Assembly: GCA_017506865.1 (NCBI GenBank) | Contig: JAFCMP010000212.1 | Coordinates: 434,001-498,000, forward strand | Direction of reading: 5' to 3' | DNA: 64,000 bases | Source: Tribonema minus | Lineage: Eukaryota > Sar > Xanthophyceae > Tribonematales > Tribonemataceae | Shown: piece after piece, positions 25,966 through 55,900 of the stretch | Layout: the number at the start of each line of letters is the position of its first letter | How positions within the stretch are numbered: the stretch's first letter is position 1 | Translations under genes and position numbers: made by a program | Notes under the pieces: generated by a model | The model's database searches: none | What the model was told of the DNA's origin: nothing | What the model saw: the letters and a program-made list of their open reading frames with translations, nothing else

Positions 25966-26226
25966 TGAAGGACCTAGAGGCTGCCTCGGCTGGTGCCGTG
26001 GGCGGGCCGACGCAGGCTGCACCTATTGGTGTCTCGCGACACCAGCCGCCGCCGCCAACAGGCTAGCGCGCGGGTCATGGCGCAGCTGCGCAGTGTGCAG
26101 CCAGCGTGCGTCCGGGGCCATGGCGTGGATGAGCGTGCCACCCACTGCCAATGACCGCCCGGGTGCGGCGCCCATGTCCAGTATGGCAGCAGCCACGATG
26201 ATTTTGATTGCGATCTTCATGGACGG

Positions 26227-26931: not shown

Positions 26932-26935
26932 GCTG

Positions 26936-28030: not shown

Positions 28031-28038
28031 ATTGTACT

Positions 28039-31800: not shown

Positions 31801-31943
31801 AGTCCAAAATGAACTTTAAGCATGCAAGTGCATCTCACATCATGTACAGCAACTTCAGGGTGATTCATACAGTGCAGCAACATAATTCATGACAGACCTG
31901 CTCAGTAGGCGTGGCAGGTGGGTCCGCGGTTGGAGTGGAGTGC
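28870..31943 (-). repeat. Array of ~352-bp units, each with a 72-nt PT exon
   Basis: Seven units plus one truncated unit are present, with exon starts spaced 339, 351, 352, 632, 352 and 351 bp. The 632-bp step and the last step include an extra spacer of about 280 bp, so the higher-order pattern is four units plus spacer, then three units plus spacer. Each exon follows TTTCTATGCAG on the minus strand and reads PTARPTALPTETPTADPTAT plus PTEQ. The first (leftmost) copy at 28889-28957 is the most diverged but keeps the frame (69 nt). Confidence 0.85.
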
Positions 31944-34900
31944 AAGCGCTGAACAAGCACTCCGATTGATGAGACAAACACATGACTTCATCTTGTCAAA
32001 GCTCATGCGGGAACGGTCACTACATGTACAGTTACCAGACGCACTGCTTACCTCCGCTGTTGGCTCTGCGGTCGGCTTGGCAGTGGGCTCTGCGGTGGGT
32101 TCAGCGGTGGGCTTGGCAGTGGGCTCAGCTGTGGGCACTGCAGTCGGTTCCGCAGTGGGCTTGGAAGTAGGCTCAGCAGTTGGCTCAGCGGTGGGCTCCG
32201 CAGTTGGCTTGGCGGTGGGCTCAGCAGTGGGCTCAGCGGTGGGCTTGGCCGTGGGCTCAGCAGTCGGCTGTGGCGGCACCACAGTGGCAGCAGTTTAATG
32301 TGAATCAATGACAGCAGTCATTCAGTACCTGCTGATGGGGCCTGGCATCAGAGCAGGATGTTCTCTCCTTGAAAGCTTTGGTGTCAGAGAACTTGCAAGG
32401 TGACAAGAGAGCTTGCTGAATAGCAGCCAGTCATTTCTGACGCCACTGCAAGCGCTGAACAAGCACTCCGATTGATGAGACAAACACATGACTTCATCTT
32501 GTCAAAGCCCATGCGGGAACGGTCACTACATGTACAGTTACCAGACGCACTGCTTACCTCCGCTGTTGGCTCTGCGGTCGGCTTGGCAGTGGGCTCTGCG
32601 GTGGGTTCAGCGGTGGGCTTGGCAGTGGGCTCAGCTGTGGGCACTGCAGTTGGTTCCGCAGTGGGCTTGGAAGTAGGCTCAGCAGTTGGCTCAGCGGTGG
32701 GCTCCGCAGTTGGCTTGGCGGTGGGCTCAGCAGTGGGCTCAGCTGTGGGCTTGGCCGTGGGCTCAGCAGTCGGCTGTGGCGGCACCACAGTGGCAGCAGT
32801 TTAATGTGAATCAATGACAGCAGTCATTCAGTACCTGCTGATGGGGCCTGGCATCAGAGCAGGATGTTCTCTCCTTGAAAGCTTTGGTGTCAGAGAACTT
32901 GCAAGGTGACAAGAGAGCTTGCTGAATAGCAGCCAGTCATTTCTGACGCCACTGCAAGCGCTGAACAAGCACTCCGATTGATGAGACAAACACATGACTT
33001 CATCTTGTCAAAGCCCATGCGGGAACGGTCACTACATGTACAGTTACCAGACGCACTGCTTACCTCCGCTGTTGGCTCTGCGGTCGGCTTGGCAGTGGGC
33101 TCTGCGGTGGGTTCAGCGGTGGGCTTGGCAGTGGGCTCAGCTGTGGGCACTGCAGTCGGTTCCGCAGTGGGCTTGGAAGTAGGCTCAGCAGTTGGCTCAG
33201 CGGTGGGCTCCGCAGTTGGCTTGGCGGTGGGCTCAGCAGTGGGCTCAGCGGTGGGCTTGGCCGTGGGCTCAGCAGTCGGCTGTGGCGGCACCACAGTGGC
33301 AGCAGTTTAATTTGAATCAATGACAGCAGTCATTCAGCACCTTCTGATCGGGCCTGGCATCAGAGCAGGATGTTCTCTCCTTGAAAGCTTTGGTGTCAGA
33401 GAACTTGCAAGGTGACAAGAGAGCCTGCTGAATAGCAGCCAGTCATTTCTGACGCCACTGCAAGCGCTGAACAAGCACTCCGATTGATGAGACAAACACA
33501 TGACTTCATCTTGTCAAAGCCCATGCGGGAACGGTCACTACATGTACAGTTACCAGACGCACTGCTTACCTCCGCTGTTGGCTCTGCGGTCGGCTTGGCA
33601 GTGGGCTCTGCGGTGGGTTCAGCGGTGGGCTTGGCAGTGGGCTCAGCTGTGGGCACTGCAGTCGGTTCCGCAGTGGGCTTGGAAGTAGGCTCAGCAGTTG
33701 GCTCAGCGGTGGGCTCCGCAGTTGGCTTGGCGGTGGGCTCAGCAGTGGGCTCAGCTGTGGGCTTGGCCGTGGGCTCAGCAGTCGGCTGTGGCGGCACCAC
33801 AGTGGCAGCAGTTTAATTTGAATCAATGACAGCAGTCATTCAGTACCTTCTGATCGGGCCTGGCATCAGAGCAGGATGTTCTCTCCTTGAAAGCTTTGGT
33901 GTCAGAGAACTTGCAAGGTGACAAGAGAGCCTGCTGAATAGCAGCCAGTCATTTCTGACGCCACTGCAAGCGCTGAACAAGCACTCCGATTGATGAGACA
34001 AACACATGACTTCATCTTGTCAAAGCCCATGCGGGAACGGTCACTACATGTACAGTTACCAGACGCACTGCTTACCTCCGCTGTTGGCTCTGCGGTCGGC
34101 TTGGCAGTGGGCTCTGCGGTGGGTTCAGCGGTGGGCTTGGCAGTGGGCTCAGCTGTGGGCACTGCAGTCGGTTCCGCAGTGGGCTTGGAAGTAGGCTCAG
34201 CAGTTGGCTCAGCGGTGGGCTCCGCAGTTGGCTTGGCGGTGGGCTCAGCAGTGGGCTCAGCTGTGGGCTTGGCCGTGGGCTCAGCAGTCGGCTGTGGCGG
34301 CACCACAGTGGCAGCAGTTTAATTTGAATCAATGACAGCAGTCATTCAGTACCTTCTGATCGGGCCTGGCATCAGAGCAGGATGTTCTCTCCTTGAAAGC
34401 TTTGGTGTCAGAGAACTTGCAAGGTGACAAGAGAGCTTGCTGAATAGCAGCCAGTCATTTCTGACGCCACTGCAAGCGCTGAACAAGCACTCCGATTGAT
34501 GAGACAAACACATGACTTCATCTTGTCAAAGCCCATGCGGGAACGGTCACTACATGTACAGTTACCAGACGCACTGCTTACCTCCGCTGTTGGCTCTGCG
34601 GTCGGCTTGGCAGTGGGCTCTGCGGTGGGTTCAGCGGTGGGCTTGGCAGTGGGCTCAGCTGTGGGCACTGCAGTCGGTTCCGCAGTGGGCTTGGAAGTAG
34701 GCTCAGCAGTTGGCTCAGCGGTGGGCTCCGCAGTTGGCTTGGCGGTGGGCTCAGCAGTGGGCTCAGCTGTGGGCTTGGCCGTGGGCTCAGCAGTCGGCTG
34801 TGGCGGCACCACAGTGGCAGCAGTTTAATTTGAATCAATGACAGCAGTCATTCAGTACCTTCTGATCGGGCCTGGCATCAGAGCAGGATGTTCTCTCCTT

Positions 34901-37900
34901 GAAAGCTTTGGTGTCAGAGAACTTGCAAGGTGACAAGAGAGCCTGCTGAATAGCAGCCAGTCATTTCTGACGCCACTGCAAGCGCTGAACAAGCACTCCG
35001 ATTGATGAGACAAACACATGACTTCATCTTGTCAAAGCCCATGCGGGAACGGTCACTACATGTACAGTTACCAGACGCACTGCTTACCTCCGCTGTTGGC
35101 TCTGCGGTCGGCTTGGCAGTGGGCTCTGCGGTGGGTTCAGCGGTGGGCTTGGCAGTGGGCTCAGCTGTGGGCACTGCAGTCGGTTCCGCAGTGGGCTTGG
35201 AAGTAGGCTCAGCAGTTGGCTCAGCGGTGGGCTCCGCAGTTGGCTTGGCGGTGGGCTCAGCAGTGGGCTCAGCTGTGGGCTTGGCCGTGGGCTCAGCAGT
35301 CGGCTGTGGCGGCACCACAGTGGCAGCAGTTTAATTTGAATCAATGACAGCAGTCATTCAGTACCTTCTGATCGGGCCTGGCATCAGAGCAGGATGTTCT
35401 CTCCTTGAAAGCTTTGGTGTCAGAGAACTTGCAAGGTGACAAGAGAGCTTGCTGAATAGCAGCCAGTCATTTCTGACGCCACTGCAAGCGCTGAACAAGC
35501 ACTCCGATTGATGAGACAAACACATGACTTCATCTTGTCAAAGCCCATGCGGGAACGGTCACTACATGTACAGTTACCAGACGCACTGCTTACCTCCGCT
35601 GTTGGCTCTGCGGTCGGCTTGGCAGTGGGCTCTGCGGTGGGTTCAGCGGTGGGCTTGGCAGTGGGCTCAGCTGTGGGCACTGCAGTCGGTTCCGCAGTGG
35701 GCTTGGAAGTAGGCTCAGCAGTTGGCTCAGCGGTGGGCTCCGCAGTTGGCTTGGCGGTGGGCTCAGCAGTGGGCTCAGCTGTGGGCTTGGCCGTGGGCTC
35801 AGCAGTCGGCTGTGGCGGCACCACAGTGGCAGCAGTTTAATTTGAATCAATGACAGCAGTCATTCAGTACCTTCTGATCGGGCCTGGCATCAGAGCAGGA
35901 TGTTCTCTCCTTGAAAGCTTTGGTGTCAGAGAACTTGCAAGGTGACAAGAGAGCCTGCTGAATAGCAGCCAGTCATTTCTGACGCCACTGCAAGCGCTGA
36001 ACAAGCACTCCGATTGATGAGACAAACACATGACTTCATCTTGTCAAAGCCCATGCGGGAACGGTCACTACATGTACAGTTACCAGACGCACTGCTTACC
36101 TCCGCTGTTGGCTCTGCGGTCGGCTTGGCAGTGGGCTCTGCGGTGGGTTCAGCGGTGGGCTTGGCAGTGGGCTCAGCTGTGGGCACTGCAGTCGGTTCCG
36201 CAGTGGGCTTGGAAGTAGGCTCAGCAGTTGGCTCAGCGGTGGGCTCCGCAGTTGGCTTGGCGGTGGGCTCAGCAGTGGGCTCAGCTGTGGGCTTGGCCGT
36301 GGGCTCAGCAGTCGGCTGTGGCGGCACCACAGTGGCAGCAGTTTAATTTGAATCAATGACAGCAGTCATTCAGTACCTTCTGATCGGGCCTGGCATCAGA
36401 GCAGGATGTTCTCTCCTTGAAAGCTTTGGTGTCAGAGAACTTGCAAGGTGACAAGAGAGCCTGCTGAATAGCAGCCAGTCATTTCTGACGCCACTGCAAG
36501 CGCTGAACAAGCACTCCGATTGATGAGACAAACACATGACTTCATCTTGTCAAAGCCCATGCGGGAACGGTCACTACATGTACAGTTACCAGACGCACTG
36601 CTTACCTCCGCTGTTGGCTCTGCGGTCGGCTTGGCAGTGGGCTCTGCGGTGGGTTCAGCGGTGGGCTTGGCAGTGGGCTCAGCTGTGGGCACTGCAGTCG
36701 GTTCCGCAGTGGGCTTGGAAGTAGGCTCAGCAGTTGGCTCAGCGGTGGGCTCCGCAGTTGGCTTGGCGGTGGGCTCAGCAGTGGGCTCAGCTGTGGGCTT
36801 GGCCGTGGGCTCAGCAGTCGGCTGTGGCGGCACCACAGTGGCAGCAGTTTAATTTGAATCAATGACAGCAGTCATTCAGTACCTTCTGATCGGGCCTGGC
36901 ATCAGAGCAGGATGTTCTCTCCTTGAAAGCTTTGGTGTCAGAGAACTTGCAAGGTGACAAGAGAGCTTGCTGAATAGCAGCCAGTCATTTCTGACGCCAC
37001 TGCAAGCGCTGAACAAGCACTCCGATTGATGAGACAAACACATGACTTCATCTTGTCAAAGCCCATGCGGGAACGGTCACTACATGTACAGTTACCAGAC
37101 GCACTGCTTACCTCCGCTGTTGGCTCTGCGGTCGGCTTGGCAGTGGGCTCTGCGGTGGGTTCAGCGGTGGGCTTGGCAGTGGGCTCAGCTGTGGGCACTG
37201 CAGTCGGTTCCGCAGTGGGCTTGGAAGTAGGCTCAGCAGTTGGCTCAGCGGTGGGCTCCGCAGTTGGCTTGGCGGTGGGCTCAGCAGTGGGCTCAGCTGT
37301 GGGCTTGGCCGTGGGCTCAGCAGTCGGCTGTGGCGGCACCACAGTGGCAGCAGTTTAATTTGAATCAATGACAGCAGTCATTCAGTACCTTCTGATCGGG
37401 CCTGGCATCAGAGCAGGATGTTCTCTCCTTGAAAGCTTTGGTGTCAGAGAACTTGCAAGGTGACAAGAGAGCTTGCTGAATAGCAGCCAGTCATTTCTGA
37501 CGCCACTGCAAGCGCTGAACAAGCACTCCGATTGATGAGACAAACACATGACTTCATCTTGTCAAAGCCCATGCGGGAACGGTCACTACATGTACAGTTA
37601 CCAGACGCACTGCTTACCTCCGCTGTTGGCTCTGCGGTCGGCTTGGCAGTGGGCTCTGCGGTGGGTTCAGCGGTGGGCTTGGCAGTGGGCTCAGCTGTGG
37701 GCACTGCAGTCGGTTCCGCAGTGGGCTTGGAAGTAGGCTCAGCAGTTGGCTCAGCGGTGGGCTCCGCAGTTGGCTTGGCGGTGGGCTCAGCAGTGGGCTC
37801 AGCTGTGGGCTTGGCCGTGGGCTCAGCAGTCGGCTGTGGCGGCACCACAGTGGCAGCAGTTTAATTTGAATCAATGACAGCAGTCATTCAGTACCTTCTG

Positions 37901-40900
37901 ATCGGGCCTGGCATCAGAGCAGGATGTTCTCTCCTTGAAAGCTTTGGTGTCAGAGAACTTGCAAGGTGACAAGAGAGCTTGCTGAATAGCAGCCAGTCAT
38001 TTCTGACGCCACTGCAAGCGCTGAACAAGCACTCCGATTGATGAGACAAACACATGACTTCATCTTGTCAAAGCCCATGCGGGAACGGTCACTACATGTA
38101 CAGTTACCAGACGCACTGCTTACCTCCGCTGTTGGCTCTGCGGTCGGCTTGGCAGTGGGCTCTGCGGTGGGTTCAGCGGTGGGCTTGGCAGTGGGCTCAG
38201 CTGTGGGCACTGCAGTCGGTTCCGCAGTGGGCTTGGAAGTAGGCTCAGCAGTTGGCTCAGCGGTGGGCTCCGCAGTTGGCTTGGCGGTGGGCTCAGCAGT
38301 GGGCTCAGCTGTGGGCTTGGCCGTGGGCTCAGCAGTCGGCTGTGGCGGCACCACAGTGGCAGCAGTTTAATTTGAATCAATGACAGCAGTCATTCAGTAC
38401 CTTCTGATCGGGCCTGGCATCAGAGCAGGATGTTCTCTCCTTGAAAGCTTTGGTGTCAGAGAACTTGCAAGGTGACAAGAGAGCTTGCTGAATAGCAGCC
38501 AGTCATTTCTGACGCCACTGCAAGCGCTGAACAAGCACTCCGATTGATGAGACAAACACATGACTTCATCTTGTCAAAGCCCATGCGGGAACGGTCACTA
38601 CATGTACAGTTACCAGACGCACTGCTTACCTCCGCTGTTGGCTCTGCGGTCGGCTTGGCAGTGGGCTCTGCGGTGGGTTCAGCGGTGGGCTTGGCAGTGG
38701 GCTCAGCTGTGGGCACTGCAGTCGGTTCCGCAGTGGGCTTGGAAGTAGGCTCAGCAGTTGGCTCAGCGGTGGGCTCCGCAGTTGGCTTGGCGGTGGGCTC
38801 AGCAGTGGGCTCAGCTGTGGGCTTGGCCGTGGGCTCAGCAGTCGGCTGTGGCGGCACCACAGTGGCAGCAGTTTAATTTGAATCAATGACAGCAGTCATT
38901 CAGTACCTTCTGATCGGGCCTGGCATCAGAGCAGGATGTTCTCTCCTTGAAAGCTTTGGTGTCAGAGAACTTGCAAGGTGACAAGAGAGCTTGCTGAATA
39001 GCAGCCAGTCATTTCTGACGCCACTGCAAGCGCTGAACAAGCACTCCGATTGATGAGACAAACACATGACTTCATCTTGTCAAAGCCCATGCGGGAACGG
39101 TCACTACATGTACAGTTACCAGACGCACTGCTTACCTCCGCTGTTGGCTCTGCGGTCGGCTTGGCAGTGGGCTCTGCGGTGGGTTCAGCGGTGGGCTTGG
39201 CAGTGGGCTCAGCTGTGGGCACTGCAGTCGGTTCCGCAGTGGGCTTGGAAGTAGGCTCAGCAGTTGGCTCAGCGGTGGGCTCCGCAGTTGGCTTGGCGGT
39301 GGGCTCAGCAGTGGGCTCAGCTGTGGGCTTGGCCGTGGGCTCAGCAGTCGGCTGTGGCGGCACCACAGTGGCAGCAGTTTAATTTGAATCAATGACAGCA
39401 GTCATTCAGTACCTTCTGATCGGGCCTGGCATCAGAGCAGGATGTTCTCTCCTTGAAAGCTTTGGTGTCAGAGAACTTGCAAGGTGACAAGAGAGCTTGC
39501 TGAATAGCAGCCAGTCATTTCTGACGCCACTGCAAGCGCTGAACAAGCACTCCGATTGATGAGACAAACACATGACTTCATCTTGTCAAAGCCCATGCGG
39601 GAACGGTCACTACATGTACAGTTACCAGACGCACTGCTTACCTCCGCTGTTGGCTCTGCGGTCGGCTTGGCAGTGGGCTCTGCGGTGGGTTCAGCGGTGG
39701 GCTTGGCAGTGGGCTCAGCTGTGGGCACTGCAGTCGGTTCCGCAGTGGGCTTGGAAGTAGGCTCAGCAGTTGGCTCAGCGGTGGGCTCCGCAGTTGGCTT
39801 GGCGGTGGGCTCAGCAGTGGGCTCAGCTGTGGGCTTGGCCGTGGGCTCAGCAGTCGGCTGTGGCGGCACCACAGTGGCAGCAGTTTAATTTGAATCAATG
39901 ACAGCAGTCATTCAGTACCTTCTGATCGGGCCTGGCATCAGAGCAGGATGTTCTCTCCTTGAAAGCTTTGGTGTCAGAGAACTTGCAAGGTGACAAGAGA
40001 GCTTGCTGAATAGCAGCCAGTCATTTCTGACGCCACTGCAAGCGCTGAACAAGCACTCCGATTGATGAGACAAACACATGACTTCATCTTGTCAAAGCCC
40101 ATGCGGGAACGGTCACTACATGTACAGTTACCAGACGCACTGCTTACCTCCGCTGTTGGCTCTGCGGTCGGCTTGGCAGTGGGCTCTGCGGTGGGTTCAG
40201 CGGTGGGCTTGGCAGTGGGCTCAGCTGTGGGCACTGCAGTCGGTTCCGCAGTGGGCTTGGAAGTAGGCTCAGCAGTTGGCTCAGCGGTGGGCTCCGCAGT
40301 TGGCTTGGCGGTGGGCTCAGCAGTGGGCTCAGCTGTGGGCTTGGCCGTGGGCTCAGCAGTCGGCTGTGGCGGCACCACAGTGGCAGCAGTTTAATTTGAA
40401 TCAATGACAGCAGTCATTCAGTACCTTCTGATCGGGCCTGGCATCAGAGCAGGATGTTCTCTCCTTGAAAGCTTTGGTGTCAGAGAACTTGCAAGGTGAC
40501 AAGAGAGCTTGCTGAATAGCAGCCAGTCATTTCTGACGCCACTGCAAGCGCTGAACAAGCACTCCGATTGATGAGACAAACACATGACTTCATCTTGTCA
40601 AAGCCCATGCGGGAACGGTCACTACATGTACAGTTACCAGACGCACTGCTTACCTCCGCTGTTGGCTCTGCGGTCGGCTTGGCAGTGGGCTCTGCGGTGG
40701 GTTCAGCGGTGGGCTTGGCAGTGGGCTCAGCTGTGGGCACTGCAGTCGGTTCCGCAGTGGGCTTGGAAGTAGGCTCAGCAGTTGGCTCAGCGGTGGGCTC
40801 CGCAGTTGGCTTGGCGGTGGGCTCAGCAGTGGGCTCAGCTGTGGGCTTGGCCGTGGGCTCAGCAGTCGGCTGTGGCGGCACCACAGTGGCAGCAGTTTAA

Positions 40901-43900
40901 TTTGAATCAATGACAGCAGTCATTCAGTACCTTCTGATCGGGCCTGGCATCAGAGCAGGATGTTCTCTCCTTGAAAGCTTTGGTGTCAGAGAACTTGCAA
41001 GGTGACAAGAGAGCTTGCTGAATAGCAGCCAGTCATTTCTGACGCCACTGCAAGCGCTGAACAAGCACTCCGATTGATGAGACAAACACATGACTTCATC
41101 TTGTCAAAGCCCATGCGGGAACGGTCACTACATGTACAGTTACCAGACGCACTGCTTACCTCCGCTGTTGGCTCTGCGGTCGGCTTGGCAGTGGGCTCTG
41201 CGGTGGGTTCAGCGGTGGGCTTGGCAGTGGGCTCAGCTGTGGGCACTGCAGTCGGTTCCGCAGTGGGCTTGGAAGTAGGCTCAGCAGTTGGCTCAGCGGT
41301 GGGCTCCGCAGTTGGCTTGGCGGTGGGCTCAGCAGTGGGCTCAGCTGTGGGCTTGGCCGTGGGCTCAGCAGTCGGCTGTGGCGGCACCACAGTGGCAGCA
41401 GTTTAATTTGAATCAATGACAGCAGTCATTCAGTACCTTCTGATCGGGCCTGGCATCAGAGCAGGATGTTCTCTCCTTGAAAGCTTTGGTGTCAGAGAAC
41501 TTGCAAGGTGACAAGAGAGCTTGCTGAATAGCAGCCAGTCATTTCTGACGCCACTGCAAGCGCTGAACAAGCACTCCGATTGATGAGACAAACACATGAC
41601 TTCATCTTGTCAAAGCCCATGCGGGAACGGTCACTACATGTACAGTTACCAGACGCACTGCTTACCTCCGCTGTTGGCTCTGCGGTCGGCTTGGCAGTGG
41701 GCTCTGCGGTGGGTTCAGCGGTGGGCTTGGCAGTGGGCTCAGCTGTGGGCACTGCAGTCGGTTCCGCAGTGGGCTTGGAAGTAGGCTCAGCAGTTGGCTC
41801 AGCGGTGGGCTCCGCAGTTGGCTTGGCGGTGGGCTCAGCAGTGGGCTCAGCTGTGGGCTTGGCCGTGGGCTCAGCAGTCGGCTGTGGCGGCACCACAGTG
41901 GCAGCAGTTTAATTTGAATCAATGACAGCAGTCATTCAGTACCTTCTGATCGGGCCTGGCATCAGAGCAGGATGTTCTCTCCTTGAAAGCTTTGGTGTCA
42001 GAGAACTTGCAAGGTGACAAGAGAGCTTGCTGAATAGCAGCCAGTCATTTCTGACGCCACTGCAAGCGCTGAACAAGCACTCCGATTGATGAGACAAACA
42101 CATGACTTCATCTTGTCAAAGCCCATGCGGGAACGGTCACTACATGTACAGTTACCAGACGCACTGCTTACCTCCGCTGTTGGCTCTGCGGTCGGCTTGG
42201 CAGTGGGCTCTGCGGTGGGTTCAGCGGTGGGCTTGGCAGTGGGCTCAGCTGTGGGCACTGCAGTCGGTTCCGCAGTGGGCTTGGAAGTAGGCTCAGCAGT
42301 TGGCTCAGCGGTGGGCTCCGCAGTTGGCTTGGCGGTGGGCTCAGCAGTGGGCTCAGCTGTGGGCTTGGCCGTGGGCTCAGCAGTCGGCTGTGGCGGCACC
42401 ACAGTGGCAGCAGTTTAATTTGAATCAATGACAGCAGTCATTCAGTACCTTCTGATCGGGCCTGGCATCAGAGCAGGATGTTCTCTCCTTGAAAGCTTTG
42501 GTGTCAGAGAACTTGCAAGGTGACAAGAGAGCTTGCTGAATAGCAGCCAGTCATTTCTGACGCCACTGCAAGCGCTGAACAAGCACTCCGATTGATGAGA
42601 CAAACACATGACTTCATCTTGTCAAAGCCCATGCGGGAACGGTCACTACATGTACAGTTACCAGACGCACTGCTTACCTCCGCTGTTGGCTCTGCGGTCG
42701 GCTTGGCAGTGGGCTCTGCGGTGGGTTCAGCGGTGGGCTTGGCAGTGGGCTCAGCTGTGGGCACTGCAGTCGGTTCCGCAGTGGGCTTGGAAGTAGGCTC
42801 AGCAGTTGGCTCAGCGGTGGGCTCCGCAGTTGGCTTGGCGGTGGGCTCAGCAGTGGGCTCAGCTGTGGGCTTGGCCGTGGGCTCAGCAGTCGGCTGTGGC
42901 GGCACCACAGTGGCAGCAGTTTAATTTGAATCAATGACAGCAGTCATTCAGTACCTTCTGATCGGGCCTGGCATCAGAGCAGGATGTTCTCTCCTTGAAA
43001 GCTTTGGTGTCAGAGAACTTGCAAGGTGACAAGAGAGCTTGCTGAATAGCAGCCAGTCATTTCTGACGCCACTGCAAGCGCTGAACAAGCACTCCGATTG
43101 ATGAGACAAACACATGACTTCATCTTGTCAAAGCCCATGCGGGAACGGTCACTACATGTACAGTTACCAGACGCACTGCTTACCTCCGCTGTTGGCTCTG
43201 CGGTCGGCTTGGCAGTGGGCTCTGCGGTGGGTTCAGCGGTGGGCTTGGCAGTGGGCTCAGCTGTGGGCACTGCAGTCGGTTCCGCAGTGGGCTTGGAAGT
43301 AGGCTCAGCAGTTGGCTCAGCGGTGGGCTCCGCAGTTGGCTTGGCGGTGGGCTCAGCAGTGGGCTCAGCTGTGGGCTTGGCCGTGGGCTCAGCAGTCGGC
43401 TGTGGCGGCACCACAGTGGCAGCAGTTTAATTTGAATCAATGACAGCAGTCATTCAGTACCTTCTGATCGGGCCTGGCATCAGAGCAGGATGTTCTCTCC
43501 TTGAAAGCTTTGGTGTCAGAGAACTTGCAAGGTGACAAGAGAGCTTGCTGAATAGCAGCCAGTCATTTCTGACGCCACTGCAAGCGCTGAACAAGCACTC
43601 CGATTGATGAGACAAACACATGACTTCATCTTGTCAAAGCCCATGCGGGAACGGTCACTACATGTACAGTTACCAGACGCACTGCTTACCTCCGCTGTTG
43701 GCTCTGCGGTCGGCTTGGCAGTGGGCTCTGCGGTGGGTTCAGCGGTGGGCTTGGCAGTGGGCTCAGCTGTGGGCACTGCAGTCGGTTCCGCAGTGGGCTT
43801 GGAAGTAGGCTCAGCAGTTGGCTCAGCGGTGGGCTCCGCAGTTGGCTTGGCGGTGGGCTCAGCAGTGGGCTCAGCTGTGGGCTTGGCCGTGGGCTCAGCA

Positions 43901-46900
43901 GTCGGCTGTGGCGGCACCACAGTGGCAGCAGTTTAATTTGAATCAATGACAGCAGTCATTCAGTACCTTCTGATCGGGCCTGGCATCAGAGCAGGATGTT
44001 CTCTCCTTGAAAGCTTTGGTGTCAGAGAACTTGCAAGGTGACAAGAGAGCTTGCTGAATAGCAGCCAGTCATTTCTGACGCCACTGCAAGCGCTGAACAA
44101 GCACTCCGATTGATGAGACAAACACATGACTTCATCTTGTCAAAGCCCATGCGGGAACGGTCACTACATGTACAGTTACCAGACGCACTGCTTACCTCCG
44201 CTGTTGGCTCTGCGGTCGGCTTGGCAGTGGGCTCTGCGGTGGGTTCAGCGGTGGGCTTGGCAGTGGGCTCAGCTGTGGGCACTGCAGTCGGTTCCGCAGT
44301 GGGCTTGGAAGTAGGCTCAGCAGTTGGCTCAGCGGTGGGCTCCGCAGTTGGCTTGGCGGTGGGCTCAGCAGTGGGCTCAGCTGTGGGCTTGGCCGTGGGC
44401 TCAGCAGTCGGCTGTGGCGGCACCACAGTGGCAGCAGTTTAATTTGAATCAATGACAGCAGTCATTCAGTACCTTCTGATCGGGCCTGGCATCAGAGCAG
44501 GATGTTCTCTCCTTGAAAGCTTTGGTGTCAGAGAACTTGCAAGGTGACAAGAGAGCTTGCTGAATAGCAGCCAGTCATTTCTGACGCCACTGCAAGCGCT
44601 GAACAAGCACTCCGATTGATGAGACAAACACATGACTTCATCTTGTCAAAGCCCATGCGGGAACGGTCACTACATGTACAGTTACCAGACGCACTGCTTA
44701 CCTCCGCTGTTGGCTCTGCGGTCGGCTTGGCAGTGGGCTCTGCGGTGGGTTCAGCGGTGGGCTTGGCAGTGGGCTCAGCTGTGGGCACTGCAGTCGGTTC
44801 CGCAGTGGGCTTGGAAGTAGGCTCAGCAGTTGGCTCAGCGGTGGGCTCCGCAGTTGGCTTGGCGGTGGGCTCAGCAGTGGGCTCAGCTGTGGGCTTGGCC
44901 GTGGGCTCAGCAGTCGGCTGTGGCGGCACCACAGTGGCAGCAGTTTAATTTGAATCAATGACAGCAGTCATTCAGTACCTTCTGATCGGGCCTGGCATCA
45001 GAGCAGGATGTTCTCTCCTTGAAAGCTTTGGTGTCAGAGAACTTGCAAGGTGACAAGAGAGCTTGCTGAATAGCAGCCAGTCATTTCTGACGCCACTGCA
45101 AGCGCTGAACAAGCACTCCGACTGATGAGACAAACACATGACTTCATCTTGTCAAAGCCCATGCGGGAACGGTCACTACATGTACAGTTACCAGACGCAC
45201 TGCTTACCTCCGCTGTTGGCTCTGCGGTCGGCTTGGCAGTGGGCTCTGCGGTGGGTTCAGCGGTGGGCTTGGCAGTGGGCTCAGCTGTGGGCACTGCAGT
45301 CGGTTCCGCAGTGGGCTTGGAAGTAGGCTCAGCAGTTGGCTCAGCGGTGGGCTCCGCAGTTGGCTTGGCGGTGGGCTCAGCAGTGGGCTCAGCTGTGGGC
45401 TTGGCCGTGGGCTCAGCAGTCGGCTGTGGCGGCACCACAGTGGCAGCAGTTTAATTTGAATCAATGACAGCAGTCATTCAGTACCTTCTGATCGGGCCTG
45501 GCATCAGAGCAGGATGTTCTCTCCTTGAAAGCTTTGGTGTCAGAGAACTTGCAAGGTGACAAGAGAGCTTGCTGAATAGCAGCCAGTCATTTCTGACGCC
45601 ACTGCAAGCGCTGAACAAGCACTCCGATTGATGAGACAAACACATGACTTCATCTTGTCAAAGCCCATGCGGGAACGGTCACTACATGTACAGTTACCAG
45701 ACGCACTGCTTACCTCCGCTGTTGGCTCTGCGGTCGGCTTGGCAGTGGGCTCTGCGGTGGGTTCAGCGGTGGGCTTGGCAGTGGGCTCAGCTGTGGGCAC
45801 TGCAGTCGGTTCCGCAGTGGGCTTGGAAGTAGGCTCAGCAGTTGGCTCAGCGGTGGGCTCCGCAGTTGGCTTGGCGGTGGGCTCAGCAGTGGGCTCAGCT
45901 GTGGGCTTGGCCGTGGGCTCAGCAGTCGGCTGTGGCGGCACCACAGTGGCAGCAGTTTAATTTGAATCAATGACAGCAGTCATTCAGTACCTTCTGATCG
46001 GGCCTGGCATCAGAGCAGGATGTTCTCTCCTTGAAAGCTTTGGTGTCAGAGAACTTGCAAGGTGACAAGAGAGCTTGCTGAATAGCAGCCAGTCATTTCT
46101 GACGCCACTGCAAGCGCTGAACAAGCACTCCGATTGATGAGACAAACACATGACTTCATCTTGTCAAAGCCCATGCGGGAACGGTCACTACATGTACAGT
46201 TACCAGACGCACTGCTTACCTCCGCTGTTGGCTCTGCGGTCGGCTTGGCAGTGGGCTCTGCGGTGGGTTCAGCGGTGGGCTTGGCAGTGGGCTCAGCTGT
46301 GGGCACTGCAGTCGGTTCCGCAGTGGGCTTGGAAGTAGGCTCAGCAGTTGGCTCAGCGGTGGGCTCCGCAGTTGGCTTGGCGGTGGGCTCAGCAGTGGGC
46401 TCAGCTGTGGGCTTGGCCGTGGGCTCAGCAGTCGGCTGTGGCGGCACCACAGTGGCAGCAGTTTAATTTGAATCAATGACAGCAGTCATTCAGTACCTTC
46501 TGATCGGGCCTGGCATCAGAGCAGGATGTTCTCTCCTTGAAAGCTTTGGTGTCAGAGAACTTGCAAGGTGACAAGAGAGCTTGCTGAATAGCAGCCAGTC
46601 ATTTCTGACGCCACTGCAAGCGCTGAACAAGCACTCCGATTGATGAGACAAACACATGACTTCATCTTGTCAAAGCCCATGCGGGAACGGTCACTACATG
46701 TACAGTTACCAGACGCACTGCTTACCTCCGCTGTTGGCTCTGCGGTCGGCTTGGCAGTGGGCTCTGCGGTGGGTTCAGCGGTGGGCTTGGCAGTGGGCTC
46801 AGCTGTGGGCACTGCAGTCGGTTCCGCAGTGGGCTTGGAAGTAGGCTCAGCAGTTGGCTCAGCGGTGGGCTCCGCAGTTGGCTTGGCGGTGGGCTCAGCA

Positions 46901-49900
46901 GTGGGCTCAGCTGTGGGCTTGGCCGTGGGCTCAGCAGTCGGCTGTGGCGGCACCACAGTGGCAGCAGTTTAATTTGAATCAATGACAGCAGTCATTCAGT
47001 ACCTTCTGATCGGGCCTGGCATCAGAGCAGGATGTTCTCTCCTTGAAAGCTTTGGTGTCAGAGAACTTGCAAGGTGACAAGAGAGCTTGCTGAATAGCAG
47101 CCAGTCATTTCTGACGCCACTGCAAGCGCTGAACAAGCACTCCGATTGATGAGACAAACACATGACTTCATCTTGTCAAAGCCCATGCGGGAACGGTCAC
47201 TACATGTACAGTTACCAGACGCACTGCTTACCTCCGCTGTTGGCTCTGCGGTCGGCTTGGCAGTGGGCTCTGCGGTGGGTTCAGCGGTGGGCTTGGCAGT
47301 GGGCTCAGCTGTGGGCACTGCAGTCGGTTCCGCAGTGGGCTTGGAAGTAGGCTCAGCAGTTGGCTCAGCGGTGGGCTCCGCAGTTGGCTTGGCGGTGGGC
47401 TCAGCAGTGGGCTCAGCTGTGGGCTTGGCCGTGGGCTCAGCAGTCGGCTGTGGCGGCACCACAGTGGCAGCAGTTTAATTTGAATCAATGACAGCAGTCA
47501 TTCAGTACCTTCTGATCGGGCCTGGCATCAGAGCAGGATGTTCTCTCCTTGAAAGCTTTGGTGTCAGAGAACTTGCAAGGTGACAAGAGAGCTTGCTGAA
47601 TAGCAGCCAGTCATTTCTGACGCCACTGCAAGCGCTGAACAAGCACTCCGATTGATGAGACAAACACATGACTTCATCTTGTCAAAGCCCATGCGGGAAC
47701 GGTCACTACATGTACAGTTACCAGACGCACTGCTTACCTCCGCTGTTGGCTCTGCGGTCGGCTTGGCAGTGGGCTCTGCGGTGGGTTCAGCGGTGGGCTT
47801 GGCAGTGGGCTCAGCTGTGGGCACTGCAGTCGGTTCCGCAGTGGGCTTGGAAGTAGGCTCAGCAGTTGGCTCAGCGGTGGGCTCCGCAGTTGGCTTGGCG
47901 GTGGGCTCAGCAGTGGGCTCAGCTGTGGGCTTGGCCGTGGGCTCAGCAGTCGGCTGTGGCGGCACCACAGTGGCAGCAGTTTAATTTGAATCAATGACAG
48001 CAGTCATTCAGTACCTTCTGATCGGGCCTGGCATCAGAGCAGGATGTTCTCTCCTTGAAAGCTTTGGTGTCAGAGAACTTGCAAGGTGACAAGAGAGCTT
48101 GCTGAATAGCAGCCAGTCATTTCTGACGCCACTGCAAGCGCTGAACAAGCACTCCGATTGATGAGACAAACACATGACTTCATCTTGTCAAAGCCCATGC
48201 GGGAACGGTCACTACATGTACAGTTACCAGACGCACTGCTTACCTCCGCTGTTGGCTCTGCGGTCGGCTTGGCAGTGGGCTCTGCGGTGGGTTCAGCGGT
48301 GGGCTTGGCAGTGGGCTCAGCTGTGGGCACTGCAGTCGGTTCCGCAGTGGGCTTGGAAGTAGGCTCAGCAGTTGGCTCAGCGGTGGGCTCCGCAGTTGGC
48401 TTGGCGGTGGGCTCAGCAGTGGGCTCAGCTGTGGGCTTGGCCGTGGGCTCAGCAGTCGGCTGTGGCGGCACCACAGTGGCAGCAGTTTAATTTGAATCAA
48501 TGACAGCAGTCATTCAGTACCTTCTGATCGGGCCTGGCATCAGAGCAGGATGTTCTCTCCTTGAAAGCTTTGGTGTCAGAGAACTTGCAAGGTGACAAGA
48601 GAGCTTGCTGAATAGCAGCCAGTCATTTCTGACGCCACTGCAAGCGCTGAACAAGCACTCCGACTGATGAGACAAACACATGACTTCATCTTGTCAAAGC
48701 CCATGCGGGAACGGTCACTACATGTACAGTTACCAGACGCACTGCTTACCTCCGCTGTTGGCTCTGCGGTCGGCTTGGCAGTGGGCTCTGCGGTGGGTTC
48801 AGCGGTGGGCTTGGCAGTGGGCTCAGCTGTGGGCACTGCAGTCGGTTCCGCAGTGGGCTTGGAAGTAGGCTCAGCAGTTGGCTCAGCGGTGGGCTCCGCA
48901 GTTGGCTTGGCGGTGGGCTCAGCAGTGGGCTCAGCTGTGGGCTTGGCCGTGGGCTCAGCAGTCGGCTGTGGCGGCACCACAGTGGCAGCAGTTTAATTTG
49001 AATCAATGACAGCAGTCATTCAGTACCTTCTGATCGGGCCTGGCATCAGAGCAGGATGTTCTCTCCTTGAAAGCTTTGGTGTCAGAGAACTTGCAAGGTG
49101 ACAAGAGAGCTTGCTGAATAGCAGCCAGTCATTTCTGACGCCACTGCAAGCGCTGAACAAGCACTCCGACTGATGAGACAAACACATGACTTCATCTTGT
49201 CAAAGCCCATGCGGGAACGGTCACTACATGTACAGTTACCAGACGCACTGCTTACCTCCGCTGTTGGCTCTGCGGTCGGCTTGGCAGTGGGCTCTGCGGT
49301 GGGTTCAGCGGTGGGCTTGGCAGTGGGCTCAGCTGTGGGCACTGCAGTCGGTTCCGCAGTGGGCTTGGAAGTAGGCTCAGCAGTTGGCTCAGCGGTGGGC
49401 TCCGCAGTTGGCTTGGCGGTGGGCTCAGCAGTGGGCTCAGCTGTGGGCTTGGCCGTGGGCTCAGCAGTCGGCTGTGGCGGCACCACAGTGGCAGCAGTTT
49501 AATTTGAATCAATGACAGCAGTCATTCAGTACCTTCTGATCGGGCCTGGCATCAGAGCAGGATGTTCTCTCCTTGAAAGCTTTGGTGTCAGAGAACTTGC
49601 AAGGTGACAAGAGAGCTTGCTGAATAGCAGCCAGTCATTTCTGACGCCACTGCAAGCGCTGAACAAGCACTCCGATTGATGAGACAAACACATGACTTCA
49701 TCTTGTCAAAGCCCATGCGGGAACGGTCACTACATGTACAGTTACCAGACGCACTGCTTACCTCCGCTGTTGGCTCTGCGGTCGGCTTGGCAGTGGGCTC
49801 TGCGGTGGGTTCAGCGGTGGGCTTGGCAGTGGGCTCAGCTGTGGGCACTGCAGTCGGTTCCGCAGTGGGCTTGGAAGTAGGCTCAGCAGTTGGCTCAGCG

Positions 49901-52900
49901 GTGGGCTCCGCAGTTGGCTTGGCGGTGGGCTCAGCAGTGGGCTCAGCTGTGGGCTTGGCCGTGGGCTCAGCAGTCGGCTGTGGCGGCACCACAGTGGCAG
50001 CAGTTTAATTTGAATCAATGACAGCAGTCATTCAGTACCTTCTGATCGGGCCTGGCATCAGAGCAGGATGTTCTCTCCTTGAAAGCTTTGGTGTCAGAGA
50101 ACTTGCAAGGTGACAAGAGAGCTTGCTGAATAGCAGCCAGTCATTTCTGACGCCACTGCAAGCGCTGAACAAGCACTCCGACTGATGAGACAAACACATG
50201 ACTTCATCTTGTCAAAGCCCATGCGGGAACGGTCACTACATGTACAGTTACCAGACGCACTGCTTACCTCCGCTGTTGGCTCTGCGGTCGGCTTGGCAGT
50301 GGGCTCTGCGGTGGGTTCAGCGGTGGGCTTGGCAGTGGGCTCAGCTGTGGGCACTGCAGTCGGTTCCGCAGTGGGCTTGGAAGTAGGCTCAGCAGTTGGC
50401 TCAGCGGTGGGCTCCGCAGTTGGCTTGGCGGTGGGCTCAGCAGTGGGCTCAGCTGTGGGCTTGGCCGTGGGCTCAGCAGTCGGCTGTGGCGGCACCACAG
50501 TGGCAGCAGTTTAATTTGAATCAATGACAGCAGTCATTCAGTACCTTCTGATCGGGCCTGGCATCAGAGCAGGATGTTCTCTCCTTGAAAGCTTTGGTGT
50601 CAGAGAACTTGCAAGGTGACAAGAGAGCTTGCTGAATAGCAGCCAGTCATTTCTGACGCCACTGCAAGCGCTGAACAAGCACTCCGATTGATGAGACAAA
50701 CACATGACTTCATCTTGTCAAAGCCCATGCGGGAACGGTCACTACATGTACAGTTACCAGACGCACTGCTTACCTCCGCTGTTGGCTCTGCGGTCGGCTT
50801 GGCAGTGGGCTCTGCGGTGGGTTCAGCGGTGGGCTTGGCAGTGGGCTCAGCTGTGGGCACTGCAGTCGGTTCCGCAGTGGGCTTGGAAGTAGGCTCAGCA
50901 GTTGGCTCAGCGGTGGGCTCCGCAGTTGGCTTGGCGGTGGGCTCAGCAGTGGGCTCAGCTGTGGGCTTGGCCGTGGGCTCAGCAGTCGGCTGTGGCGGCA
51001 CCACAGTGGCAGCAGTTTAATTTGAATCAATGACAGCAGTCATTCAGTACCTTCTGATCGGGCCTGGCATCAGAGCAGGATGTTCTCTCCTTGAAAGCTT
51101 TGGTGTCAGAGAACTTGCAAGGTGACAAGAGAGCTTGCTGAATAGCAGCCAGTCATTTCTGACGCCACTGCAAGCGCTGAACAAGCACTCCGATTGATGA
51201 GACAAACACATGACTTCATCTTGTCAAAGCCCATGCGGGAACGGTCACTGCATGTACAGTTACCAGACGCACTGCTTACCTCCGCTGTTGGCTCTGCGGT
51301 CGGCTTGGCAGTGGGCTCTGCGGTGGGTTCAGCGGTGGGCTTGGCAGTGGGCTCAGCTGTGGGCACTGCAGTCGGTTCCGCAGTGGGCTTGGAAGTAGGC
51401 TCAGCAGTTGGCTCAGCGGTGGGCTTCGCAGTTGGCGTGGCGGTAGGCTCAGCAGTTGGCTCAGCGGTGGGCTTCGCAGTTGGCTTGGCGGTGGGCTCAG
51501 CGGTGGGCTTCGCAGTTGGCTTGGCGGTGGGCTCAGCAGTTGGCTCAGCTGTCGGCTTGGCTGTAGGCTCAGCAGTTGGCTGTGGCGGCACCACAGTGGC
51601 AGCAGCTCAAATCAATGACATCAGTCATTCATTCAGTACCTGCTGATGGGGCCTGGCATCAGAGCAGGATGTTCGAGACCGTCGGGGGCACACACGGCTG
51701 CTCTGCTGCGTGATACTTGAATGTCAGGCCTCACAGCAAGACTTGGTGCGTGTCCTGACCAGCCAAAGCATTGTGACCAGTGTTGCCCCGTTAAATGGTT
51801 ACACTGGTATCCGTATCATTTTTTGTACCAGTTTGAACCGGTGACTGGTCGCCGCTGGTTAACCCGTACGCATCACTGGTGGTGCAAGGCAACCCATCAA
51901 ACACCTACTTCTTAAGCTCAGCTGTGTAGCTGGCATTCCGAATGAGACCTGGTGGCACATGTTTCACGTCAACGTTGTCATGAGTCGGCCATCACGTGTA
52001 CATCATGCAATCATAGCAGCAGCAATGAAAGGGAGGATCTGTAATCGTCCCCTTAGTACCGGTCAACTGACCGTGAGAGTGGGCTTCGATGTGGGTGTGT
52101 GTGTGGGGCTGCGCGTGGGCTGTCCAGTTGGTGTGGCAGTTGGCTGCAGAAATTCACGCAGATTGGCATGGGGCAAAAATGTTGGCACACAATAGCATAC
52201 TGAAGAACTAGAGGTGGGTTCAACTTGTCAGCTTACAATTGCGCAGGTTATCAGCACATGCGGCCCTGCAAGATGCAGCTGCTACAAGGTTTGATTCAGT
52301 GGTTATGTAGCATGCATCAGCAGAGTCCTTCTCGCTGCGTTCAGCAGATGACACAGGCATGTTTATGCGCTCCAGCAGTTGTAGGAGACGCAAGTGAACT
52401 TCATTCAAAGTACCAACCATTGAGTGTGACGCTTCAATGTCGAAATTGAGCGAGCATTGTCTGCCAAGCTGGACATCTGACGAACATGATGCAACCAATA
52501 CGAAGTGAATTGTGTGTGAATTGTGTCAACAGTGAGCAGCGAAAGTAGCCTGCACGAAGAGCTTGACACAGCGTCATGTGCTGTTACAAATGCCTGTCAA
52601 CCTCAAGGGGTGAGGGGCGTGTCACACAGGCTGTTGCAAGCTTCCAGTGTGGACGTCACCAAGGTACCTGATAATCATGAATGTGCTTCAACTTCAATTA
52701 TGCAAGTTCAATTATGCAACACCACATCTTAGGACTCAGCTGAGGCAGCATGCTCCACCACAACATAAGGCCACCTGGTTTTCCACAACACGGTTTTCAG
52801 TGCGAGTTCTAGGTAGTGGGCAAATGACGGAGAAATTGATGGTGCAATGCATTCGGGCAGGAGGCAATTGTATTCATGATGCCTCTGTGATCCATTTGCT

Positions 52901-55900
52901 GTATTTCTCATGTTCTCTGACACATTTCTGATGCACTTCTGCCACAAATTAGATGTAAGATTTCTCAAACGCTGGAAAATGCTTTGTGGCTGACTTCGAG
53001 TCGATTTGTGTTTCAGATGTTCCTTGCAACACCATTTGCCTTCAATTGCATTTCCCCATGGTCTAGACGTAGGGGCCGTGCTCAAACTGCTGCAAAGAGT
53101 ATGTTTGCACAAGGATTTGCTGATGAATTCAACGACCATCAGCACCACCAATTTGCGAGATTTTCGACAGCACCACCACAGATCAGCTGCTGTGCACACT
53201 GTCAAATTCGACCGTTGTTTGTGCTTCAGTACAAGCGAGCACACAATGATACCTTAGCAGTGGGCTGAGCAGTTGGCTCAGCAGTGGGCTCGGCGGTGGG
53301 CTTGGCTGTTGGCTCAGCGGTCGGCGTAGCAGTGGGCTTCGCCGTAGGCTGCAACAGGAAAGCACAGGCATAACTGTGGGGAAAGGCCCAAAGCACCTCA
53401 AATGTTCAACCATGGTGCACTCATGCAAGGATTTCAGTATTCGTGCCCACTTGCCTGATGCAAGACAGCAATGAACGACTCGGAGCACAGTGCACAGCGG
53501 CTGCAATGTGAACATCTGCATCAGGACATGTTCGTTATGGCACTGCCTGCAGTTTCTGACCTGTATTTGGCTGAGTCCGAGTCTGTTCTAGGACCCTGTC
53601 TGACCATTGCGTCAATCTCAACTGCACCACACAGATTGTCGGGATCGTTGCTTAATTGTTGGTCCGGGAAGTGACAAGTTAAACGCGAACCTTAGCCATA
53701 CACATAGACCTCACTTTGTAAGCAGCAATATCTTTACCATATACTCACTGTGCGACATCACAAGATGGCTTGCGCAGGCTGCAAGCACTCGTAGCGCGAA
53801 TGACTGCTCTGTGCACAAATGATGTCCTGAACCTGCTCAAGCGACTATTGGCAGTTTTACGAGGGCACCGATCCCTGTAGGATTGCCATCAGGGTCTCCT
53901 TCTTTGCCGCTGTGGCTGTTCGCTGCTGGCGAATGCGGTAGGTAGCATTTCATCGGAAGCATTTACAATACTGTGCTTTGAGACTAGGCCGACATGAAAG
54001 AATCAGGTGTGTACCGGGCACCTCTCCTTCAAGTTCTTACGCTTACTTCTTAAGCTCAGCTGTTTAGCTGGCATTCCTAATGAGACCTGGTGGCAAATGT
54101 TTCACGTCAACTTTGTCATGAGTCGGCCATCACGTGTACATTATGCAATCATTGCAGCAACAATGAAAGGGAGGATCTGTAATCGTCCCCTTAGTACCGG
54201 TCAACTGACCGTGAGACTGGGCTTTGATGTGGGTGTGCGTGTGGGGCGGCGCGTGGGCTGTCCAGTTGGCGTGGCAGTTGGCTGCAGAAATTCACGCAGA
54301 TTGGCATGGGGCAAAAATGTTGGCACACAATAGCATACTGAAGAACTTGAGGTGGGTTCAACTTGTCAGCCTACAATTGCGCAGGAATCAGCACATGCGG
54401 CCCTGCAAGATGCAGCTGCTACAAGGTTTGATTCAGTGGTTATGTAGCATGCATCAGCAGAGTCCTTCTCGCTGCGTTCAGCAGATGACACAGGCATGTT
54501 TATGCGCTCCAGCAGTTGTAGGAGACGCAAGTGAACTTCAAGGTACCAACCATTGAGTGTGACGCTTCAATGTCGAAATTGAGCGAGCATTGTCTGCCAA
54601 GCTGGACATCTGACGAACATGATGCAACCAATACGAAGTGAATTGTGTGTGAATTGTGTCAACAGTGAGCAGCGAAAGTAGCCTGCACGAAGAGCTTGAC
54701 ACAGCGTCATGTGCTGTTACAAATGCCTGTCAACCTCAAGGGGTGAGGGGCGTGTCACACAGGCTGTTGCAAGCTTCCAGTGTGGACGTCACCAAGGTAC
54801 CTGATAATCATGAATGTGCTTCAACTTCAATTATGCGAGTTCAATTCACGCATTATATGTCTTGCTTGGAACAGCGCCTGCAGCATCTCAGGACTCACGC
54901 AGAGGCACAGCATTCCCCACCACAACACTAAGCCGCTGCATCCTGGTTTAAGAAAACGCCACAACACGGTTTTCCCTGGTGCGAGTTCTAGGTAGTGGAG
55001 CAAATGAAGCGGAGAAATTGAGTGCAGGTATTTTTTTGCAATGCATTCGGGCAGGAGGCAATTGTATTCATGATGCCTCTGTGATCCATTTGCTGTATTT
55101 CTCATGTTCTCTGACACATTTCTGATGCACTTCTGCCACAAATTAGATGTAAGATTTCTCAAACGCTGGAAAATGCTTTGTGGCTGACTTCGAGTCGATT
55201 TGTGTTTCAGATGTTCCTTGCAACACCATTTGCCTTCAATTGCATTTCCCCATGGTCTAGACGTAGGGGCCGTGCTCAAACTGCTGCAAAGAGTATGTTT
55301 GCACAAGGATTTGCTGATGAATTTTGGCAACGACCATCAGCACCACCATATTTGAAACCAGATCAGTGCTGACTCGTTTCCACAGACAGCTGCTGTGCAT
55401 TCACTGTCAAAAACCGACCGATTGTTTGTGCTTCAGTACAAGCGAGCACACAATGATACCTTAGCAGTGGGCTGAGCAGTTGGCTCAGCAGTGGGCTCGG
55501 CGGTGGGCTTGGCTGTTGGCTCAGCGGTCGGCGTAGCAGTGGGCTTCGCCGTAGGCTGCAACAGGAAAGCACAGGCATAACTGTGGGGAAAGGCCCAAAG
55601 CACCTCAAATGTTCAACCATGGTGCACTCATGCAAGGATTTCAGTATTCGTGCCCACTTGCCTGATGCAAGACAGCAATGAACGACTCGGAGCACAGTGC
55701 ACAGCGGCTGCAATGTGAACATCTGCATCAGGACATGTTCGTTATGGCACTGCCTGCAGTTTCTGACCTGTATTTGGCTGAGTCCGAGTCTGTTCTAGGA
55801 CCCTGTCTGACCATTGCGTCAATCTCAACTGCACCACACAGATTGTCGGGATCGTTGCTTAATTGTTGGTCAGGGAAGTGACAAGTTAAACGCGAACCTT

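Follow-up and report, generated by a model that had tools for sequence, protein, structure and literature searches.

We asked whether the long run of 506-bp tandem units in the stretch of Tribonema minus DNA analyzed here (64,000 nucleotides of contig C212, hereafter the window) encodes part of a protein or is a repeat of another kind. From the sequence, a large minus-strand gene of this yellow-green alga was judged probable, with the array at its middle and a secreted Pro/Thr-rich (PT) protein as its product; the units would be spliced as 72-residue blocks, and the length of the protein would be adjustable. Light-harvesting proteins encoded in the 158-Mb genome accorded with a position near Tribonema: they matched plastid proteins of the red lineage, which spoke against a green alga, and matched Tribonema minus at 95%.

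Architecture of the 506-bp array

The array (31944..51674, minus strand) contained 39 exons (38 of 216 nt and one of 300 nt) separated by 290-nt introns. The donor GCGGAG|GTAAGC was found 39 times on the minus strand, from 32,046 to 51,274, and all successive gaps were exactly 506 bp. The acceptor CTGTGGTGCCGCCACAG|CC was also found 39 times on this strand, with a spacing of 506 bp in 37 of 38 cases and 590 bp in one; all donors and acceptors fell between 32,046 and 51,596. These counts confirmed the 39 minus-strand units described in the initial annotation, which had also assigned a 216-nt exon to each. That length held for 38 units, including the one with the final exon (32052..32267), and failed for the first transcribed exon (51280..51579), a longer variant of 300 nt. 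The 38 short exons were open in phase 0, as had been proposed, with no stop and one identical translation, and the contribution of the array to the protein was computed as 38 × 72 + 100 = 2,836 residues, in agreement with the earlier figure of about 2,800. Read through, the intron would close the frame: its 290 nt are not divisible by 3, and a stop is reached at the 58th in-phase codon, so an open frame requires that the intron be removed. Chance was excluded as the origin of the array by the exact spacing and by the identical build of exons at other loci.

Among the 38 full-length units there were only 9 variable columns, of which 2 were exonic (both synonymous) and 7 intronic. The units comprised 7 distinct sequences, one pattern being shared by 26 identical copies, and the longest run of identical consecutive units was 16 (8.1 kb). 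Recurrent unequal exchange or gene conversion might keep the units, introns included, nearly identical. Such a run also bears on the assembly: the order and count of up to 16 identical units are not derivable from the assembly alone, so that a real array could have an inflated or collapsed copy number. We regard this as unlikely, because marker bases differed between the two ends of the array (one variant in five of units 2–8, another in four of units 25–35), and because elsewhere we found a second array with a different period as well as a diverged relative.

The near-identity of introns and exons bears on two further explanations. The observed introns, nearly as uniform as the exons, would fit retention of the unit on account of a non-coding RNA or intronic element, with the exon incidental. 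However, no Rfam family reached the gathering threshold in 28,000–64,000, paralogous arrays retained the PT exon but had different introns, and the exon carried the third-position signature described below; this explanation is very improbable. The same uniformity would suit an array that arose from a coding exon but has since become a passive satellite, or belongs to a dead gene, expanding by recombination and untranslated. Against this, splice sites were retained in 39 of 39 units. The absence of decay inside the array is in itself weak evidence, because the array is young.

A predicted gene around the array

In-phase exons could be placed on both sides of the array. The predicted minus-strand gene extended from 62,214 to 29,228 and comprised 53 in-phase exons with 3,400 codons and no stop on translation; its PT exons all started and ended at a codon boundary. 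The predicted first coding exon (61903..62214, 104 codons) had a signal-peptide-like start (MRLLRLLLALPSLRLAQA), with an acceptor-like CAG directly 5' of the ATG and a phase-0 GTATGT donor. By hydropathy alone, its Kyte-Doolittle 9-residue means reached 2.1. Exon 2 (60480..60947, 156 codons) consisted of PTRT/PTRR/PTTA repeats assigned to PF04886 (PT disordered repeat; cut-off 26.2 bits), and the ORF at 60,285–61,148 scored 64 bits. Among the matches listed, the first array exon also exceeded this cut-off (38.4 bits at 51,445–51,546, C212:485445-485546). PF04886 is a composition-type repeat, and membership is no proof of common ancestry or function. Exons 3 (58578..58649) and 4 (56403..56474, weak donor GTCAGT) were 72 nt long and in phase 0. 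Exons 5 (55460..55555) and 7 (53253..53348), both 96 nt, lay in the outer and inner copies, respectively, of a 2,207-bp duplication, and exons 6 (54210..54281) and 8 (52072..52143, weak donor) were 72 nt.

Downstream of the array, 352-bp units (28829..31562, minus strand; 4.0 and 3.0 copies by TRF) contained six clean 72-nt exons followed by a weak GTCCGT donor. Five of the six encoded PTARPTALPTETPTADPTATPTEQ and the sixth differed by one residue; an additional altered exon was recognized by eye at approximately 28,889–28,957. At the junction (31900..31944, read from the sequence), the 506-bp array cut into a 352-bp unit, leaving a partial exon without its own acceptor. As the final 506-bp unit meets this broken unit near 31,944, the following acceptor is missing; the intron at this point would extend to 31,337. 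A repeated element occupied 23.3–27.0 kb, downstream of the predicted gene, and Copia-type elements were also nearby.

A 3' end, a stop, or a Cys-rich C-terminal domain was searched for downstream of the array and none was found. The Cys-tailed PT genes found in this genome (C434, C56, C212:970k, and C468) end in such a domain, with CCP..ARR.L at the terminus where read, and the predicted window gene appeared to lack it. Nine pieces were run by tblastn; for the seven that were Cys-rich and came from other loci, the best match in the window had an E of only 0.016. The ORF at 27,718–28,050 was considered as a Cys-rich C-terminus of the window gene and rejected, since tblastn of a piece of it gave no convincing match elsewhere. 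In searches of a public protein database among proteins of similar length, neither a 93-aa Cys-rich domain query (1 candidate) nor region 400–559 of a 559-aa model (507 candidates) gave a match at E ≤ 0.001.

The C-terminal exon that tblastn did not find, the broken 352-bp exon at the junction, and the nearby repeated and Copia-type elements would all fit the passive satellite or dead gene set out above. However, the 53 exons were free of stops and the signal exon was intact.

Splice sites and codon changes in PT-repeat exons

PT-repeat exons of matching build also occurred on other contigs with different introns, and for this reason a bare satellite was rejected as the main reading. We collected 125 PT runs from the window (two of the 39 array exons kept, the 37 inner ones left out) and 20 other loci, dropping runs that ended within 60 nt of a locus end (12–14 nt in a companion count). 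An AG lay flush before 115 of these runs, a GT flush after 100, and both flanked 99; the runs included near-identical copies from contig C553 and were thus partly non-independent. At control offsets, GT was found in 0–9 of the 125 runs, except for 17 at +12, and AG in 0–6, except for 72 at +12, which is inside the repeat. On the reverse strand the flush AG/GT pair was found in 0 of 125, and a plus-strand gene was rejected on this basis. Whole PTXX tetrapeptides and lengths in multiples of 12 are inherent in the search pattern and were not counted as evidence. Approximately one-fifth of the runs lacked a flush site on at least one side; in most of these the repeat was interrupted and continued in frame, or the donor was GC. 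Exceptions at other loci were a stop within one run (L016) and an apparent frame shift in another (L011).

A splice-site profile was built from 71 exons of other loci; it includes PTAE-biased exon bases. The array donor ranked first in the unit and at the 77th percentile of the training set, and the array acceptor also ranked first in the unit, yet was weak (10th percentile). Eight other exons of the gene model were scored, and in seven of them the donor was at or below the 7th percentile, a result that counts against the predicted gene. Two of these exons (at 56k and 52k) scored below all 71 training sites, and predicted exon 1 was at the 1st percentile for both splice sites.

Codon changes were compared between neighboring 12-nt units of the array exon, which was taken whole from splice site to splice site. 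Changes by codon position were 0/0/10 for Pro and 0/0/13 for Thr; that is, they were confined to the third position. The other exons in this comparison had been chosen as PT runs, so their few changes at positions 1 and 2 (0–2 per exon) partly reflect selection by pattern. Between the array and five relatives on C553, which are partly mutual copies, exons diverged by 4.6–6.2% and aligned introns by 24–44%, the latter counting non-homologous stretches and thereby overstating the contrast. Codon differences between the array exon and one C553 exon were 8 non-synonymous and 4 synonymous; therefore, selection there is not tight.

The flush splice sites at other loci, the third-position variation, and the splice-site profile together strongly support the earlier reading of each unit as an exon plus an intron. 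Weak acceptors and donors would also suit a passive array that is not translated, whereas the array matches that reached into the intron, among those listed, adjoined PT exons on C553 and C201 and were not dispersed. On balance, we consider a passive satellite or dead gene improbable, and the best reading of the sequence is that an exon-intron unit was recently amplified within a predicted cell-wall or surface PT-protein gene.

Related loci and a second giant array

The initial annotation had called exon arrays of this kind rare, a statement tempered by a second giant array on the same contig. Among the matches listed, this array comprised approximately 30 exons in units of approximately 741 bp, 49 kb beyond the window and approximately 61 kb from the first. 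Its donor was GTAAGC, as in the 506-bp array, and its acceptor context was closely similar; its exons were 147 nt, not multiples of 12. A signal-like exon lay approximately 1.5 kb upstream of it, although this exon was missed by the paralogue search with exon 1, and its kinship was judged from its place and an alignment by eye. No convincing Cys-rich domain was found downstream of the second array by tblastn (best E, 0.033). A paralogue of exon 1 was present at C553:93118-93423 (47% identical), on the same strand as the C553 array and approximately 26 kb upstream of it.

These loci tentatively suggest a secreted PT family built for length change, with codon-boundary exons of mostly whole PTXX tetrapeptides that are copied along with their introns. 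Protein length may then be a trait that changes fast, determined by the number of exon copies and perhaps also by skipping past weak acceptors. The two giant arrays (39 units of 506 bp; approximately 30 exons at approximately 741 bp) would have been amplified separately, each with a longer first exon and a signal-like exon at its head.

Proposed mechanism and comparison with known systems

In the predicted gene, each 506-bp unit would be spliced as one block of 72 residues, or 18 PTXX tetrapeptides. Since every exon has 0-0 phase, the length would change in 72-residue steps, with the frame intact, whenever units underwent unequal crossing-over or any one exon was skipped; the gain and loss of copies proposed earlier follows from this phase. 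Less surely, the PT stretch may form an extended cell-wall or extracellular rod, probably hydroxylated and glycosylated, the length of which the array may set. Taken as a whole, the earlier interpretation appears to be partly supported.

With tandem, near-identical units of a whole exon and intron in symmetric phase, the array appears to have the build of a coding VNTR, and by analogy it may work like LPA KIV-2 and spider-silk genes. Human LPA kringle IV-2 is described as tandem exon-plus-intron units with little variation, the copy number of which (1 to >40) varies in populations and alters protein length (PMC4378929). The near-identical units are common to both; the LPA unit spans 5.5 kb with two exons and encodes a folded kringle (PMC4378929), whereas that of Tribonema is 506 bp with one exon, encodes a low-complexity PT block, and is known from one assembly. 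Multiple introns almost identical within a gene are described for the repetitive extracellular protein genes spider silk Flag and Argiope MaSp2 (A. trifasciata), with up to six introns per sequenced part of a spidroin gene (PMC3522626). The likeness is one of gene build, not descent: spidroins are arthropod proteins of unrelated sequence, with fewer introns described and with conserved N- and C-terminal domains.

PT-repeat proteins of the diatom Thalassiosira pseudonana are described with XPT/SX tetrapeptide repeats, many being silicon-responsive and some silaffin-like (PMC5501833). They resemble the Tribonema product as stramenopile proteins with tetrapeptide repeats, compared at the tetrapeptide level only, and differ in being tied to the silica walls of diatoms. 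A surface-protein role for the putative product is plausible because of the signal-peptide-like first exon, the PT composition, and this link of diatom PT-repeat proteins to walls. By title or abstract start, no description of such a PT-exon family was found among the open-licence PMC papers listed.

The hydroxyproline-rich wall glycoproteins of volvocine green algae are secreted Pro-rich proteins of the extracellular matrix; they belong to another lineage, and the likeness lies in being Pro-rich and, for the Tribonema product, putatively secreted. To our knowledge, few genes have exon-level copy-number engines, LPA and some silk genes being those we can name. A protist gene family apparently uses such an engine repeatedly, with very uniform one-exon units, and it may well escape gene predictors and short-read assemblies. 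The array would offer a clean system for measuring unequal exchange inside a gene and a test case for how splicing handles 39 identical exons, and it would allow us to ask whether the length of a wall protein is under selection.

Organization of the predicted exon array

The window corresponds to C212:434001–498000. On its minus strand, between 31,944 and 51,674, the donor GCGGAG|GTAAGC occurred 39 times, spaced by exactly 506 bp; the acceptor CCACAG|CC also occurred 39 times, with a single spacing of 590 bp. These counts agreed with the initial annotation, which had claimed 39 units of 506 bp with a GTAAGC donor. The 216-nt exon it assigned to every unit was found in 38, all coding for an identical 72 residues; the first transcribed exon in the predicted order was instead 300 nt. 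The claimed phase 0 was borne out by the uniform 0-0 phase of the exon units. The array intron was 290 nt long and had a stop at the 58th in-phase codon. The 38 full-length units showed 9 variable columns and 7 distinct sequences, with 26 identical copies, and pairwise differences in units 3–37 averaged 0.47 base per 506. This near-identity indicates that amplification or homogenisation of the array was very recent.

Coding test of PT runs

PT loci, coding for Pro/Thr-rich PTXX tetrapeptides (PF04886), were numerous in the genome (158 Mb, 554 contigs), with at least 155 DNA matches and at least 169 Pfam matches. All runs with five or more PTXX units were taken in the window and 20 fetched loci, two of the 39 array exons being kept, and the 125 runs with 60 nt on each side were counted. 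AG was flush before 115 of the 125 runs, GT flush after 100, and both were flush in 99, although these runs are not all independent, those of contig C553 including copies of one another. A looser end rule gave 100/127, and reversal gave flush splice sites in 0/125. When adjacent 12-nt units within the array exon were compared, differences at codon positions 1, 2, and 3 numbered 0, 0, and 10 for Pro and 0, 0, and 13 for Thr. Pro and Thr codons of nine other exons, most of which had been chosen as PT runs, showed 0–2 differences in total at first and second positions versus 11–30 per third position. Such third-position variation is the trace expected from translation as PTXX and not from DNA drift.

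In a splice-site profile trained on 71 exons of loci L016–L028, of which L028 shares contig C212 with the window at a distance of ~480 kb and the others lie on different contigs, the proposed donor and acceptor ranked first within the array unit. The donor was typical (77th percentile) and the acceptor weak (10th percentile). The array exon differed by 4.6–6.2% from five C553 relatives, and the aligned intron by 24–44%, a value inflated by non-homologous stretches. Counting against the exon reading, comparison with one C553 exon gave 8 non-synonymous codon changes against 4 synonymous ones, and in 7 of 8 other model exons scored the donor reached no higher than the 7th percentile, with two of these seven donors scoring below every one of the 71 training sites. 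Judged by flush splice sites, the third-position pattern, and the splice profile, the proposed reading of the unit as exon plus intron is well supported.

Predicted gene around the array

Sequence reading and translation suggested a minus-strand signal-peptide-like exon of 104 codons at 62,214–61,903, with a hydrophobic start and a phase-0 end at GTATGT. By sequence reading, seven further minus-strand PT exons were placed upstream of the array, from 60.9 to 52.1 kb; a 2,207-bp tandem duplication with PT exons lies in this part of the gene (53191–55935). Downstream of the array, repeat search and sequence reading identified 352-bp units on the minus strand with six clean 72-nt exons, the final exon of this type being altered; the 3' end of the predicted gene was looked for downstream of the array, where a repeated element takes up 23.3–27.0 kb, and not found. 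The gene model comprised 53 exons and 3,400 codons with zero stops, and the modelled part of the protein (T 26%, P 24%, A 22%, E 14%) would be ~341 kDa prior to any processing or modification.

Related PT loci

Contig C553 holds a diverged relative of the array in two facing copies (C553:28450–35564 and 60833–70311; L011, L014, and L015), mostly 97–99% identical, introns included. The two copies may stem from a large inverted duplication or, alternatively, from a fold-back in the assembly. A signal exon at 93.1–93.4 kb of C553, 47% identical to that of the window, lies ~26 kb upstream of the minus-strand array copy on the same strand. Introns of other PT loci had for the most part diverged, apart from one pair on contig C56 that was nearly identical (99.6%), which indicates that duplication of whole exon-intron units recurs at different ages. 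Some PT genes carried Cys-rich modules of two kinds (L027:7500–7904, L019, L020, L024, and L028; L016, L023, L025, and L026): kind one is C-terminal (CYI...GLC; CCP..ARR.L), and kind two (C..TC.YL.IPY.S..QC) was found in other PT loci. A public-protein search with these modules, restricted by length class, gave no match, and none of the literature searched, judged by title and opening of the abstract, described the PT family with its signal exon and its Cys-rich modules in other members.

A second giant array of regularly spaced PT exons, detected by Pfam search, lies 49 kb right of the window on the plus strand (C212:546988–568657; L035 and L036), where both ends were read and Pfam matches lie between. 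It opens with a 264-nt first exon (546,988–547,251); later exons are 147 nt (15 nt plus a 132-nt run), and the last variant ends at 568,657. Steps were 665 bp once and then 740–741 bp where read, giving ~30 exons (12 read and 18 Pfam matches in the middle at steps of 740–749 bp). Both arrays share the GTAAGC donor and a closely similar acceptor context. A signal-like exon ~1.5 kb upstream of the second array (about 545.2–545.5 kb; L037/L035) showed some likeness in alignment to that of the window gene, and was absent from the results of a protein search with the latter. PTRR/PTRT exons lie downstream of the second array (L036 and L038) and upstream of the array in the window; these opposite positions indicate that the order of exon blocks has changed between the two.

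Other features of the window and genome

Copia-type pieces occupy 3029–7678 of the window, with a plus-strand gag/zinc-knuckle ORF (3349–4998; scores below curated cut-offs), a minus-strand RVT_2 ORF (6662–7639; 174 bits), and inverted repeats (3029–3288 and 5590–5849; 98.8%). An ORF at 8264–9823 matched STELLO glycosyltransferase (PF03385; 34.8 bits, cut-off 27.8). A repeated element (23349–27009) was 91–96% identical to C553 and C56 stretches, and just outside it a telomere-like short run, CCCTAACCCTAACCCT, lies on the minus strand at about 23106–23135. Light-harvesting genes were present in the genome (92 exon-level matches). One exon matched a Tribonema minus protein with 95% identity across 253 residues, which places the genome with the yellow-green algae (Xanthophyceae), within Tribonema or close to it.

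Proposed mechanism and role

Misaligned exchange would gain or lose whole units and keep the units alike in both exon and intron, and splicing would link 72-residue blocks of identical sequence. Exon skipping would be frame-neutral too, every exon being symmetric (0-0 phase), and we speculate that the weak array acceptor makes some skipping likely. Published accounts describe systems that would work in a like manner, for which we do not claim common descent with the array: the LPA KIV-2 unit of 5.5 kb with two exons in 1 to >40 copies (PMC4378929), and silk genes, which contain near-identical introns (PMC3522626). A further study describes PT tetrapeptide repeats in diatom proteins responding to silicon, with hydroxylation suggested (PMC5501833). 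From these diatom proteins, the signal-like exon, and the composition, we infer that the PT protein may have a wall or surface role.
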